Program-made: the position numbers and the translations under genes
The notes under the pieces: generated by a model
Told to the model about the DNA's origin: nothing
The model's input: the letters and a program-made list of their open reading frames with translations, nothing else
Databases searched by the model: none
In this document: piece by piece, positions 50,778-56,525 of the stretch
Layout of the letters: each line of letters opens with the position of its first letter
How positions within the stretch are numbered: the stretch's first letter is position 1
DNA from: Sulfolobus sp. S-194
Lineage (GTDB): Archaea > Thermoproteota > Thermoprotei_A > Sulfolobales > Sulfolobaceae
DNA: 64,000 nt
Reading direction: 5' to 3'
NCBI RefSeq assembly: GCF_012222305.1
Contig: NZ_CP035730.1
Location: forward strand, 1,825,501 to 1,889,500

Positions 50778-51215
50778 ATGCATTTATTCGTAATAGCCGT
50801 TATACTAATAATTCTTGGAATCTTGTTTCTTTCTCTAATACCTTTAGCATCTCAAAACTCTATAAGGATAAGTGATAAGGTTGTAATTTTTCCTCATGAA
50901 TCCTATACTGTACCATATAGTGGTGGTTCTGAAGTGCTTTTTTCTTATAATTTTTCTAATCCAATTAAGGTTTATGGTTATCCTTCTGGTGCTACAATTA
51001 CTAATGATAGCATGGTATATGTTATTTGTTTCTTTTCCTCTTCTCCTGGCAATTTTACACTATACAATGGTAATAATATCTCTTCCACAGTATATTTCAC
51101 TCTTTACGAGGCTTACGGCTTAGCCTTAGATATTGAATATATGTTTGTCATTTCTCCTATCTTAATAGTAGCTGGAATAGTCCTCATTCTCTATTCTAAG
51201 TTAATAAAGCGATAA
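50778..51215 (+). CDS. Two-helix membrane protein, unknown
   Basis: 145 residues. A hydrophobic N-terminal segment (residues 3-26, LFVIAVILIILGILFLSLI) acts as signal or anchor. A beta-rich extracytoplasmic part of about 90 residues follows, with several N-x-S/T sites. A C-terminal transmembrane helix (about 121-140, FVISPILIVAGIVLILYS) ends in a KLIKR basic tail. No family recognised. Its last 25 bases overlap the convergent CHAD-domain gene. Confidence 0.6.
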   Translation: MHLFVIAVILIILGILFLSLIPLASQNSIRISDKVVIFPHESYTVPYSGGSEVLFSYNFSNPIKVYGYPSGATITNDSMVYVICFFSSSPGNFTLYNGNNISSTVYFTLYEAYGLALDIEYMFVISPILIVAGIVLILYSKLIKR

Positions 51216-51823
51216 TGAAACTCATCTTGTTCTTTAATAATTTTTATTATTGCGTTAATTGCTTCCTCCTTGTAAACACTTACGTTAATTTCTGGCGGAG
51301 CTAGTCCATTACATTCCATTTTTAGTATGTTATCCCTTACATCGCCCATCTTTTTTGCAATAATTTTTACCTCTTGAGAGTTATAACCTAATGCTTCAGT
51401 CAAGTTTCTTATGATTCTCACTCTTTTTCTGATTTCATGAAAATCATCCAACCGAGGAATTAACTCATATAAACTGTAAATTCGCCTAAACAGGAGTAAT
51501 CTACTTCCATAGATTTTCACCGGTAGATAGCATATTTTTAGTTGTCTAAATTTCTTTATAGTATCGTAAGCCAGTTCATCTCTTCTCCTACTTCTTAATC
51601 CACAAATATCCATATCTCTTATTCTTCCTAGGTTTCCTATAATTTCATTTGAAATGAAAGCACATTCAGAATTTTCATAAATAGGATAAAGAGAAATTAA
51701 AACATCGTAATACTTTCTTAAGTTAACTCTAGCATCATGAATACTCTCTTCATCAATTTTAGTTATTAATAGTACTTCTTTAAGATTAAGGTTTGCATAT
51801 TCTTCAGGGCGTAATGTTTTCAA
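51191..51823 (-). CDS. CHAD-domain protein (likely polyphosphate-binding)
   Basis: 210 residues, helical. It carries the CHAD pattern twice: ESIHDARVNLRKYYDVL with LGRIRDMDIC, then DDFHEIRKRVRIIRNL with KKMGDVRDNI. The conserved His and many Arg/Lys would line a basic pore; CHAD domains are known to bind inorganic polyphosphate and often adjoin polyphosphate enzymes. It is the last gene of sixA-ppx-tmk-tmk-CHAD, overlapping the preceding kinase-like gene by 20 bases. The location next to an exopolyphosphatase makes a polyphosphate role likely. Confidence 0.8.
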   Translation of the reverse strand: MKTLRPEEYANLNLKEVLLITKIDEESIHDARVNLRKYYDVLISLYPIYENSECAFISNEIIGNLGRIRDMDICGLRSRRRDELAYDTIKKFRQLKICYLPVKIYGSRLLLFRRIYSLYELIPRLDDFHEIRKRVRIIRNLTEALGYNSQEVKIIAKKMGDVRDNILKMECNGLAPPEINVSVYKEEAINAIIKIIKEQDEFHYRFINLE

Positions 51824-52421
51824 TTTTATTCACTATCTCCTTATGTACTTCATCAAAATCTCTATCCGTGTAGATAATATTTTCCTTTGAAGATAGGGAA
51901 ATCAGAACTTTCTGAAATCCATTAATATAGTCTTCATAAGCTGCAAACACGTCGTCTTTTATACAAATATCTATTCCGGCACTAAGGGGGTCTAAGAATC
52001 CTCTTTTCTTTATTATTCTCTTTATGATTTCCTCTGGTCTTGAAATAAGAGAAAAGTATACGGCTGGTCTGGGGAAAATAGATAGAACGTCATTCATCCA
52101 ATCTCTCTCTAATCCCCTTACCAGTCCCCATGACATCAAAGTCAATATGTAACCATCAGCTAATGCAATAAAACCAGAGTCTAATGAAGGTTTAACATAG
52201 TTCTCAACCTGATCTGCCAAATCAGTGACATAAGCTAAAAATAATGTCCTTCTCTCAAATACTATATTCCTTTTTACTTGCGAAATTCTCTCACCTATCA
52301 ACTTTGACATTTGCAAACCAAAAGTTATCGTTCCATAACCTTCTTTTTCTAGGTAGCGTTTAACAGCTTCTAAGTGTGCTGTTCTACCAGATCCCTCAAT
52401 TCCTTCAAAAGCTATTATCAA
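51804..52421 (-). CDS. Thymidylate-kinase-like protein with degenerate active site
   Basis: 205 residues, clearly related to the next gene but altered at key residues. The P-loop reads [10 protein letters not shown], so the invariant Walker A Lys is Arg (R13). The DR(Y) motif of thymidylate kinases is ADGYILT (D89-G90). The overall fold spacing (Walker A, DxY, LID region RIIKKRG) is kept. It may be a non-catalytic partner of the neighbouring kinase, or have shifted to another phosphoryl chemistry. Overlaps of 17 and 20 bases with its neighbours show tight translational coupling. Confidence 0.75.
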
Positions 52422-53046
52422 CTAACTCACCTACAAACTTTCTAATTTGAATTTGTATTTCCTTTGGAGTTTTAGTTCCGTCAATTACTATAAAATTCTC
52501 GTCCTTAACTAATTTATCGTAAACCTCAGTAATTAGTCCTTGGTATTTTAAGAATCCATCCTCCGGTGATAACGCTGGAAATATATCAGCACCAGCCTCT
52601 TGAGGTTTTATTTTCCTTTTTGATTTCTTTATCCTCTCCAGAGCTATTTCTGGTGGAACCCTAATGTAAAAAGTGATATCTGGCTTAACAGCAAATGAGT
52701 ATAGCTTTTTAACCCAATTAATGTCTACACCTCTAACGCTATCCCTAGCATAAGCCGTGTAAATATACCTATCAGAAATAACTATAAAACCGGACTTAAG
52801 CATCGGCAAAATATACCTCTCATATCTGTCAGAAAAATCAGTAGCATGTATTAAACTAAAAGTTAAAGGAGTAAGTAAATCCTTCTTTTTTGCCTCTTTA
52901 ATTATGTCATGGATCCAGTCCGAGGAGTTCCACTCTGTTAGATAAACATCTCTTTTTAATTCTATCCAATCCTTAAGTAGTGTAGCTTGGCTTGATTTAC
53001 CAGATCCATCAATTCCTTCAAAAGCTATTAGAACTCCTTTTGTCAT
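52405..53046 (-). CDS. tmk: Thymidylate-kinase-family P-loop kinase
   Basis: 213 residues with an intact Walker [12 protein letters not shown] (K17), the DRY motif [12 protein letters not shown] (D92-R93) and a LID-like [10 protein letters not shown] segment. Classical Tmk phosphorylates dTMP. Placement between an exopolyphosphatase and a CHAD gene raises the alternative that it uses or makes polyphosphate. I have an unverified recollection of a Tmk-like polyphosphate kinase being proposed in Sulfolobales. The ATG overlaps the ppx stop (ATGA). Confidence 0.8.
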
Positions 53047-54296
53047 AGTCTAACACCATTAACATACTTCTCAACAGAATTTTTCACTATATTTCCATAA
53101 GATAATAACTCTTTTTTACTTATTTTTTCACTTAAAAATTTAATATGTTTCTTCTTTACTTTATTATATGCAGATTTACATATAAAGCCTATTATTAAGG
53201 CTTCTTCTAAGAGAAATCCTGGTAAGACGGAATTCTTGATAAACCTATAGCAAGCTTCATAAGGATTAAGATAACCACACATCTTAAATATTAGAGACAA
53301 ATAAGCTGCCGAAGCAATATAGAACGAATATTTTCCACCCACACTATCCATTATATCTTTAAATATTTGAATTGGTGGTTCTAATGCGTTAAAATAAGCT
53401 ATTCCGTATAACCAACTCTCCCTATTTAGCCTTCTTCCTTCAGTTAATGCCCCTTCTCTCATCCCATAAGCGGAGATAACAAGTCTTTCTGAATTAAAAT
53501 ATTTCATTAACTCATCTATGATGATTGACGCCGTATGTATTGTGAAAGCTCTTTCTTTTCCAATACCTGGTAGGGAGGCTCTTGCATCTAAATCTAACGT
53601 ATGAAGAAGTGAGGAATATTTAGTTATTTGTTTTGATGAAATTGAGTAGCCATGAATTGATCTTGTCGGATAAGATGAAAGCTTTAAATCCATCTTTGCT
53701 AAAGCCCTTGCATTACCTCCAGATCCTACTAAAATACCTTGTTTTTTCATAGAGAGTGTTGATAACTGATCTTTAACTGCTTTTCTTATCTCTTTTTCTG
53801 GGTAATGTAAAAGTTTTAATGCTCCTATAGGTAACTGGTAGAGTTTACCAATATTTCCCTCGTTAACCTCAATCAGTTCGAGGGAGCCTCCACCAAGCTC
53901 AAAAAGTATACCACCAGAAATGGGTAAAGTATTTAGAATTCCTATCCCGGAAAATCTTCCCTCTTCTTCTCCAGAAATAATTCTCATTTCATATCCTATG
54001 AGTTTACTTAATCTTTGAGCAATCTCATTACCATTAGTAGCATATCTAAAGGCACTAGTAGCAATTATTTTAACGTCTTCTACTTTCTCTTTATCAATAA
54101 TCTTCTTGAAAATTGAAAAAGCTTCTTCAGCCTCTCTAATCTTACTCTCTCCTATGGGTTTTCCTTCTTCTAATCCTTCACCTATTCTCACAAAAGACTT
54201 AACTGAGCCTATAATTCTAAAAGTTCCATTGGGAAAAACTTGATATAGAACTAGACGAAACGAATTAAAGCCCGCATCAATAACAGCTGATAACAT
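53043..54296 (-). CDS. ppx: Exopolyphosphatase Ppx/GppA
   Basis: 417 residues of the actin-fold Ppx/GppA family: [17 protein letters not shown] at the start, [26 protein letters not shown] and [15 protein letters not shown], with the catalytic Glu in GEEE. A helical C-terminal domain (about 300-417) follows. It degrades polyphosphate from the end (or hydrolyses pppGpp in bacteria, unlikely here). It is second in the operon, two bases after the sixA stop. Confidence 0.92.
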
Positions 54297-54298
54297 AA

Positions 54299-54778
54299 TT
54301 AAATCATCTTAAGCACCTTCTGAGTTAAAAGCATTTTTAAAACACCTTTATTTTCTTTTAAATCATAATCAATCATAGCTATACCTCCTTTCTTAATTTC
54401 GATGTTTGCACCGGTTAACAATTTAATCAAACCAGAGAGATATGGCTCATGACCCACAATTAATACTGTCAAATTGTCTGGGAACTCTTTTATTTTTTCT
54501 AAAAACTGAGAAGGATCCTTATCTGGTATTAAATCATCGTAAGTCTCTATTTTTAAGCTATCTACCCCTATTTTATCTAATATAGCTTCTGCTGATTGAT
54601 ATGCTCTCAAGTAGGGGCTAGAAACGACTTTATCAATTTTTACCCCTATTTCATCAAGAAAACTAGCAACTCTTTTCATTTGCTTTAGTCCTTTCTTCAC
54701 TAATCGTCTATCTTTATCATCCTTTCCCTCAATTTGAGGTTCCGCGTCTCCATGCCTTACTATAATTAAACTAAGCAT
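54299..54778 (-). CDS. SixA-type histidine phosphatase
   Basis: 159 residues of the histidine-phosphatase clan: IIVRHGDAEP at residues 5-14 (phospho-His acceptor), SSPYLRAYQSAEAI in the middle, and IVGHEPYLSGL with the second His. The compact size matches SixA, which removes phosphate from protein phospho-His. It leads the sixA-ppx-tmk-tmk-CHAD unit, so a small phosphate ester or polyphosphate-related substrate is equally possible. Confidence 0.85.
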   Translation of the reverse strand: MLSLIIVRHGDAEPQIEGKDDKDRRLVKKGLKQMKRVASFLDEIGVKIDKVVSSPYLRAYQSAEAILDKIGVDSLKIETYDDLIPDKDPSQFLEKIKEFPDNLTVLIVGHEPYLSGLIKLLTGANIEIKKGGIAMIDYDLKENKGVLKMLLTQKVLKMI

Positions 54779-54902
54779 GCTATCTATATTTTCAGCTATT
54801 ACTATTTAAGGTTTTCTATATAAACTATATAACAGTATAAGGTTATATTATCATATGCGACGTCTATATATGTATAATTTTACTTCATTAAGTATTAGGA
54901 TG

Positions 54903-55685
54903 TTAGTTACTCCAGGCTTCATATTTACTTAAGTACCTTAATCTCTCTGATAATGAAGGATGAGTTCTGAAAATACTTCTACTGTTATTACTCATTAGTT
55001 GTTGTTTTATAAAATATAACTGAAAGTCCGGAATATCTCTAAGTAGGTAAGAAGGTATACTTCGACCCAAATAACCAATTTTTATTAATGCATTCTCTAA
55101 ATAGATTGTTAACCACCTATTATTCTTAACCGCAGTTAAATCAGCCTTTTTTTCTAGCATTCTATGTATGAAAATGAAAAGAGGATAAGCAAGTGCAAAA
55201 GTAACTAAGCCTAATATAAAGTCGATATTAAAAAGATAAAGATATAGAATATTGTAAAGAATTAGGCCGAGAACTTGAATCTCCATATCATGATTTTTTA
55301 AATGTGCTAGCTCATGAGCTGTAACGCCAATAATCTCGTTATCTTGTAAAGATGACAAAAGCCCAGAAGTATATCCAATAGCCTTATAAAAGAAATTTCC
55401 GAATGCAAAAGCATTAGAATAATCTGTATTTGCTACATAAATGATAGGTTTGTTCATTCTAAATATTGAGGCTGTGTAAGAGATTAGCGAATTCAATCTT
55501 TCGTCTTCACTTCTTCTAAGTTTAAACGAAAATATCATAATCAATGGAGATAATAAATACCATATGAAGAAAATTAACGATATTTCACCGCATTCTAGAT
55601 AGAAGTTTAAAGGAACAAAATTCGAGAGAATAAGAGAGAGTGCAAGGAGTATAGCAAAAGAGATAAAGTAATATCTCCACCACAT
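54903..55685 (-). CDS. M48-family membrane metalloprotease (HtpX-like)
   Basis: 260 residues. Two N-terminal transmembrane helices (about 5-22 and 34-53) precede the zinc motif VTAHELAHLKNHD (H124-H128). A further hydrophobic pair follows, then the third-ligand Glu in MLEKKADLTAV, and a C-terminal RTHPSLSERLRYL, the HPS motif of HtpX. This is the layout of HtpX-type quality-control proteases of the cytoplasmic membrane. The 124-base gap upstream toward sixA is AT-rich and holds nothing else. Confidence 0.88.
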   Translation of the reverse strand: MWWRYYFISFAILLALSLILSNFVPLNFYLECGEISLIFFIWYLLSPLIMIFSFKLRRSEDERLNSLISYTASIFRMNKPIIYVANTDYSNAFAFGNFFYKAIGYTSGLLSSLQDNEIIGVTAHELAHLKNHDMEIQVLGLILYNILYLYLFNIDFILGLVTFALAYPLFIFIHRMLEKKADLTAVKNNRWLTIYLENALIKIGYLGRSIPSYLLRDIPDFQLYFIKQQLMSNNSRSIFRTHPSLSERLRYLSKYEAWSN

Positions 55686-55727
55686 AAGAGATTTTTAGAA
55701 TAAAAGATAATATTTATTGTGCATTAC

Positions 55728-56525
55728 TTAGCCGAATATTTTTTCTAGGCCTTTTCTCTTTATAAAATCATAAATTTTATCATCTATTTCAGAGTCAAAT
55801 AACAGAACTTTTACTGACTTCTCATAATTTAATAATTCATAAAGTGCATTGATACCAGTAGATCTCTTCTCCCCTATTGTTAACTCACCGTTATCTAATT
55901 CACCATCTATAATAGTATAAATTCCTTCAAGGTTTTCTCCATATATGTAAATTCCACCAAACTTTATTACTGGAATATATTTTTTAGCTTCTTTTATAGC
56001 ATTAATTGGTATTCCCTCGATTTTACCCAAAAATCTTAGATGAATATGTTGTTGTCTTCTTAGTTGTCGTAAATAAGGGAGTACATGATCTTCAAAGATA
56101 TGCTCTGGGCTCGCATACTCAAACACTTTTTTCTTACCAAAAAATGATTTAACTTCTTCATCTTCTACTTTAATTCTTAAAATAGTATTTTCCCCATCTT
56201 GCTTTATAAAGAAATCTATTTGAGCTGTTTCCCCATTTTTGTCAGATAGAATATACTCTATCTGAGTAGAACTTGTTATAGTCTGAGTTACAGAAAGTAG
56301 TTCTACCTCAACTTTTTCTTTTTCTGTATCTGGAATATTAAGATAAGCAACAATATATTTCCCAGTCTTATTCTTAACTTTAGATGGTGGTAACAATTCT
56401 CCACTCTTATCTTCAGCTAGCAATACTGCAAAGTGTCCAGATATTCCTGCAAGTAACACAATATCTGATAAAATACTAAGCACCTGTTTAGAGTCAACGT
56501 AAAGCGTGAATTCTCTTTCATACAT
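55728..56525 (-). CDS. SRPBCC-like protein of unknown function
   Basis: 265 residues, no membrane segment. The first about 145 residues follow the alternating strand/helix pattern of the START/SRPBCC lipid-binding fold (VDSKQVLSILSDIVLLAGISGHF at the start, SPEHIFEDHVLPYLRQLRR helix at the end). The C-terminal about 110 residues (IEGIPINAIKEAKKYIP...ALYELLNYEKSVKVLLFD) form a second alpha/beta domain resembling DUF4388-like effector domains. Both placements are tentative. Single gene, 42 bases from the M48 protease gene on the same strand. Confidence 0.5.
   Translation of the reverse strand: MYEREFTLYVDSKQVLSILSDIVLLAGISGHFAVLLAEDKSGELLPPSKVKNKTGKYIVAYLNIPDTEKEKVEVELLSVTQTITSSTQIEYILSDKNGETAQIDFFIKQDGENTILRIKVEDEEVKSFFGKKKVFEYASPEHIFEDHVLPYLRQLRRQQHIHLRFLGKIEGIPINAIKEAKKYIPVIKFGGIYIYGENLEGIYTIIDGELDNGELTIGEKRSTGINALYELLNYEKSVKVLLFDSEIDDKIYDFIKRKGLEKIFG

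Follow-up and report, generated by a model that had tools for sequence, protein, structure and literature searches.

A conserved five-gene operon of Sulfolobaceae with a thymidylate-kinase-like candidate polyphosphate kinase and its degenerate paralog

Neither PPK1 nor PPK2 has been found in Crenarchaeota (PMC6864096), and their absence from the genome studied here rests on that paper. Binding of polyphosphate has been described for SsCHAD of S. solfataricus, which holds the polymer via H29, R32, R36 and R69 (~45 nM; PMC6537752). In excerpts of PMC10892726 (2024), a SixA-PPX-dTMP kinase-CHAD cluster is drawn for biomining archaea (Fig. 2), and the crenarchaeal polyphosphate synthase is given as then unidentified. 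A crenarchaeal family of polyphosphate kinases ('family 3') is credited to Hofmann et al. (bioRxiv 2024; JBC 2026) by the papers that cite it (PMC11677633, PMC13318637).

A tightly packed operon and its conservation in Sulfolobaceae

We analyzed a stretch of 64 kb, referred to here as the window, from a Sulfolobaceae genome of 2.79 Mb. The ORF listing reveals five tightly packed genes on the minus strand at positions 51191-54778, in the order SixA, PPX, TmkA, TmkB and CHAD:

54779-54816, minus strand: possible BRE/TATA promoter, GAAAACC TTAAATA, roughly 25-37 bases ahead of the start codon (ATG) of SixA, recognized by eye
54299-54778, minus strand: SixA-type histidine phosphatase, gene 1 (159 aa; TIGR00249, PF00300)
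53043-54296, minus strand: PPX exopolyphosphatase (417 aa; PF02541)
52405-53046, minus strand: TmkA, thymidylate-kinase-like, candidate polyphosphate kinase, putatively of the PPK3 type (213 aa; PF02223)
51804-52421, minus strand: TmkB, degenerate paralog of TmkA, candidate non-catalytic partner (205 aa; TTG start; PF02223)
51191-51823, minus strand: CHAD protein, putative polyphosphate binder (210 aa; TTG start; assigned from orthology and residues)

The junctions measure +2 (SixA/PPX), -4 (PPX/TmkA), -17 (TmkA/TmkB) and -20 bases (TmkB/CHAD), which agrees, as do the coordinates, with a sequence-only reading that had described five minus-strand genes with 2-base gaps or overlaps of 4-20 bases. 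We consider it quite probable that polyphosphate is synthesized, bound and broken down by the products of the operon, with TmkA as the kinase and TmkB as its degenerate partner.

The first protein scores 94.3 bits against the SixA model TIGR00249 (cut-off 74.5), matches PF00300 and contains the RHG motif in the form VRHG; the motifs VRHG and VGH.P are kept in the Sulfolobaceae orthologs. Its substrate is perhaps a phosphohistidine on one of the operon's proteins. PPX, which would hydrolyse polyphosphate, carries the Ppx-GppA domain PF02541 (139.9 bits, cut-off 27) and scores 221 bits against TIGR03706 (exo_poly_only), under the cut-off of 307. The last protein reaches 18.5 bits against PF05235, below the cut-off of 25.6, and is called CHAD because of its ortholog alignment and its binding residues. 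H29, R32, R36 and R69 occupy the same positions as in SsCHAD and are conserved in 26/26 Sulfolobaceae; binding was measured for SsCHAD, whereas the window protein would bind the polymer to judge from its sequence. The 3' end of the CHAD gene overlaps, at 51191-51215, a convergent plus-strand ORF (50778-51215) without a family match. Upstream of the operon, two proteins are encoded at 54903-56525, one an M48 (HtpX-like) protease and the other of no confident family.

An adjacent TmkA-TmkB pair is present in 26 of 31 Sulfolobaceae genomes. Because the order SixA-PPX-TmkA-TmkB-CHAD recurs with near-identical overlaps in 26/26 of these pair carriers, the arrangement is well beyond chance, and the conservation that the sequence-only reading had proposed as a check holds for the pair carriers of this family. 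In four of the 26 carriers at least one gene is broken (G002, G012, G025) or incompletely matched. In G012 (locus L076, 5022-7784), tmkB is interrupted by an insertion of about 2.8 kb that carries transposase-like ORFs, PPX is frameshifted and CHAD contains a stop; tmkA is intact. The pair is absent from the remaining five of the 31 genomes, three of which (G004, G021, G022) likewise lack CHAD and PPX, and a fourth (G005) retains a divergent PPX. The fifth (G003, locus L069) retains SixA, but PPX and CHAD survive there as remnants with the kinases gone from between them, a deletion having fused part of PPX with part of CHAD. In 166 genomes from other families of the same order, the matches were all weaker and of canonical type.

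The two thymidylate-kinase-like proteins

TmkA exceeds the cut-off of PF02223 (100 bits) and contains a P-loop and a DRY motif. It is 96% identical to its ortholog ST1543 of S. tokodaii (PDB 2PLR/4NZY/4RZX/5H70), deposited as a dTMP kinase, and in one relative TmkA is, by eye, the same as the PDB sequence of ST1543. The genome studied here therefore probably belongs to Sulfurisphaera. The NCBI dTMP-kinase model TIGR00041, an equivalog model, takes in TmkA with 109 bits (cut-off 83.25). TmkA lacks the AYQ motif of the dTMP site: canonical Tmk proteins have Tyr (30/30) and Gln (29/30) at positions 101 and 102, whereas Arg101-Asp102 is found in 106/106 TmkA homologues among the matches listed. 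Within these 106 listed sequences, K17, W39, N40, S41, K53, R74, R93, R101, D102 and R105 are invariant.

A separate canonical tmk (145 bits) was found elsewhere in the same genome (G000:C1:712026-712538), as a search for a second, unlinked copy proposed from the sequence alone had envisaged. TmkA is therefore not the needed dTMP kinase of the genome, and the TmkA-TmkB pair is free of that duty. Most of 50 other carrier genomes likewise contain at least three Tmk matches, among the matches listed. The dTMP-kinase name of ST1543 is probably a misnomer, and since TIGR00041 scores TmkA over its cut-off, TmkA-type genes have probably been mislabelled in this way in many genomes.

Neither PPK1 (PF02503) nor PPK2 (PF03976) was matched among the five operon proteins. 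TmkA and PPK2 are both P-loop kinases, and after other PPK2s ST1543 was the structure closest to FtPPK2 (PMC4748334). Membership of TmkA in PPK2 was nevertheless rejected: the protein has no PF03976 match, its motif is DRY rather than DRS, and its PPK2 profile match is weak (3e-4, versus 1e-45 to canonical Tmk). On sequence grounds, TmkA is likely the polyphosphate kinase of the operon. We infer a reversible, nucleotide-dependent reaction, NTP + polyP(n) = NDP + polyP(n+1), that would take place on a thymidylate-kinase fold. The nucleotide would be the task of the P-loop and the DRY arginine. The dTMP site would be remodelled for the phosphate chain, with Arg-Asp in place of Tyr-Gln together with Arg74, Arg105 and Lys53.

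TmkB scores 50 bits against PF02223, over the cut-off, and 48.7 bits against TIGR00041, under 83.25. Its predicted fold (pLDDT 84) has ST1543 as the closest PDB structure, and a profile search of the PDB returned essentially Tmk structures, again headed by ST1543. The P-loop lysine is replaced by arginine in 83 of 103 TmkB sequences among the matches listed and is kept in the other 20, which include those of Gastranaerophilales; the DRY arginine is kept in 77 of 78 listed sequences from outside Sulfolobaceae. Within Sulfolobaceae, R74Q, R93G and R101W occur in 25/25 proteins, and the P-loop K to R change in 16/25. When TmkB is compared with two near relatives, dN/dS is 0.04-0.07, and it is 0.20 when these relatives are compared with each other; the low values indicate strong purifying selection, and the reading of TmkB as a pseudogene was rejected because of them. 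In a tree with 30 canonical Tmk proteins, TmkA and TmkB stand apart (support 1.0) and TmkA is monophyletic (0.985); canonical Tmk attaches inside TmkB, so the TmkB root is not placed. The pair is Tmk-like and very likely polyphosphate-linked, as had been proposed, but its members are not equivalent, the P-loop of TmkB being degenerate. It is plausible that TmkB is a degenerate partner, which would bind or orient the polyphosphate chain as the non-catalytic subunit of a presumed TmkA-TmkB heteromer.

Distribution of the pair and of known polyphosphate kinases

A scan of genome contigs with TmkA returned at least 543 relatives, of which 80 were kept for analysis. The matches listed include Acidobacteria, Nitrospirae, Chloroflexi, Gastranaerophilales, Planctomycetes, Verrucomicrobia, Thaumarchaeota and others; the first four of these groups have the A-B tandem, as do the Thaumarchaeota. 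The pair thus reaches far beyond the crenarchaea. A sample of the phylum places TmkA in Sulfolobaceae and two other families, both with the pair, three weak single matches (107-114 bits) aside. No TmkA relative was found in the viral contigs searched. A TmkB-type partner lies within 2.5 kb downstream of TmkA in 78 of 80 listed loci, and the distance matrices of the two proteins correlate (r=0.88); TmkA and TmkB are co-inherited.

Among the matches listed, 79 loci are from outside Sulfolobaceae. PPX, SixA or CHAD is found within about 5 kb at 48 of them (two of the three in 24, all three in 10) and PhoU near seven; 26 have no phosphate gene within that distance. The gene order of the operon is reproduced exactly in a Nitrososphaerales archaeon (L117), and at L150 a CHAD-PPX-HD fusion sits between TmkB and TmkA. 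At five Chloroflexi loci (L149, L153, L160, L165, L166), the pair directly follows phosphate-regulon genes (PhoU, in some PstB) and precedes CHAD.

Among the matches listed, PPK1 was found in 10 and PPK2 in 35 of 50 TmkA-carrier genomes. In a sample of 297 genomes of the acidobacterial phylum, PPK1 is present in 5 of the 38 TmkA carriers and in 162 of the 259 genomes without TmkA (Fisher p=7e-9), a value without phylogenetic correction that overstates independence because the genomes are related and partly incomplete. Depletion of PPK1 among the pair carriers, together with the frequent presence of PPK2, would leave polyphosphate synthesis vacant.

Alternative readings and relation to described systems

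A polyphosphate function for the TmkA-TmkB pair is very likely, and the reading of the operon in these terms from sequence alone gains support from the spare canonical tmk and the conserved neighbourhood. That TmkA is instead a second dTMP kinase or a broad NMP kinase, placed in the operon through general phosphate metabolism, would account for its scores over the PF02223 and TIGR00041 cut-offs and for the deposition of ST1543. This is very unlikely given the separate canonical tmk, the Arg-Asp substitution throughout the listed homologues, and the recurrence of PPX, CHAD and PhoU as neighbours across phyla. The pair might also use polyphosphate rather than make it, with TmkA phosphorylating nucleotides from the polymer in the PPK2-like direction as an energy buffer. 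The title of Hofmann et al. (2024), with its reference to polyphosphate as an energy buffer when energy charge is low, is in keeping with such a role, as is the PPK1 found in ten of the 50 carriers among the matches listed; the PPK1-poor, PPK2-rich carriers, in which synthesis is left vacant, speak against it. We regard use in place of synthesis as rather unlikely, and it overlaps with our preferred reading because the TmkA reaction may be reversible.

For TmkB, strong purifying selection, the P-loop lysine in a fifth of the listed sequences and the DRY arginine in nearly all listed ones from outside Sulfolobaceae would also suit an active kinase with another substrate, in which case there would be no degenerate partner. 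Such an activity is unlikely: the P-loop lysine has become arginine in most listed sequences, R74, R93 and R101 are lost from every Sulfolobaceae protein compared, and TmkB almost always adjoins TmkA, with which it is co-inherited. The fuller form of the partner reading, an obligate heteromer of one catalytic and one degenerate subunit that replaces PPK1 in many bacterial phyla, ammonia-oxidising archaea and Sulfolobaceae, is a tentative proposal that we put at somewhat below even chance.

If the proposed function is correct, a likely polyphosphate synthase can be named for Sulfolobaceae, ammonia-oxidising archaea, Nitrospirae and Anaerolineae, in which polyphosphate accumulates or PPX is present but PPK1 is lacking. 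A solved "dTMP kinase" structure would be explained as a polyphosphate enzyme, and the dTMP-kinase annotation would probably be wrong for genes of this kind across many genomes.

The cluster in the available part of PMC10892726 is the same as that of the window, with its kinases labelled dTMP kinase there and given no functional proposal, and the Sulfolobales operon itself is thus already known. The enzyme of Hofmann et al., known through citations of that work as a distinct polyphosphate kinase of Sulfolobus acidocaldarius, is most likely the TmkA ortholog. The Tmk-like polyphosphate kinase of Sulfolobales that the sequence-only reading mentions has a counterpart in a published crenarchaeal family, whose identity with TmkA we infer. 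The degenerate partner, the bacterial and archaeal range of the pair and the anti-correlation with PPK1 are apparently additional to the literature found.
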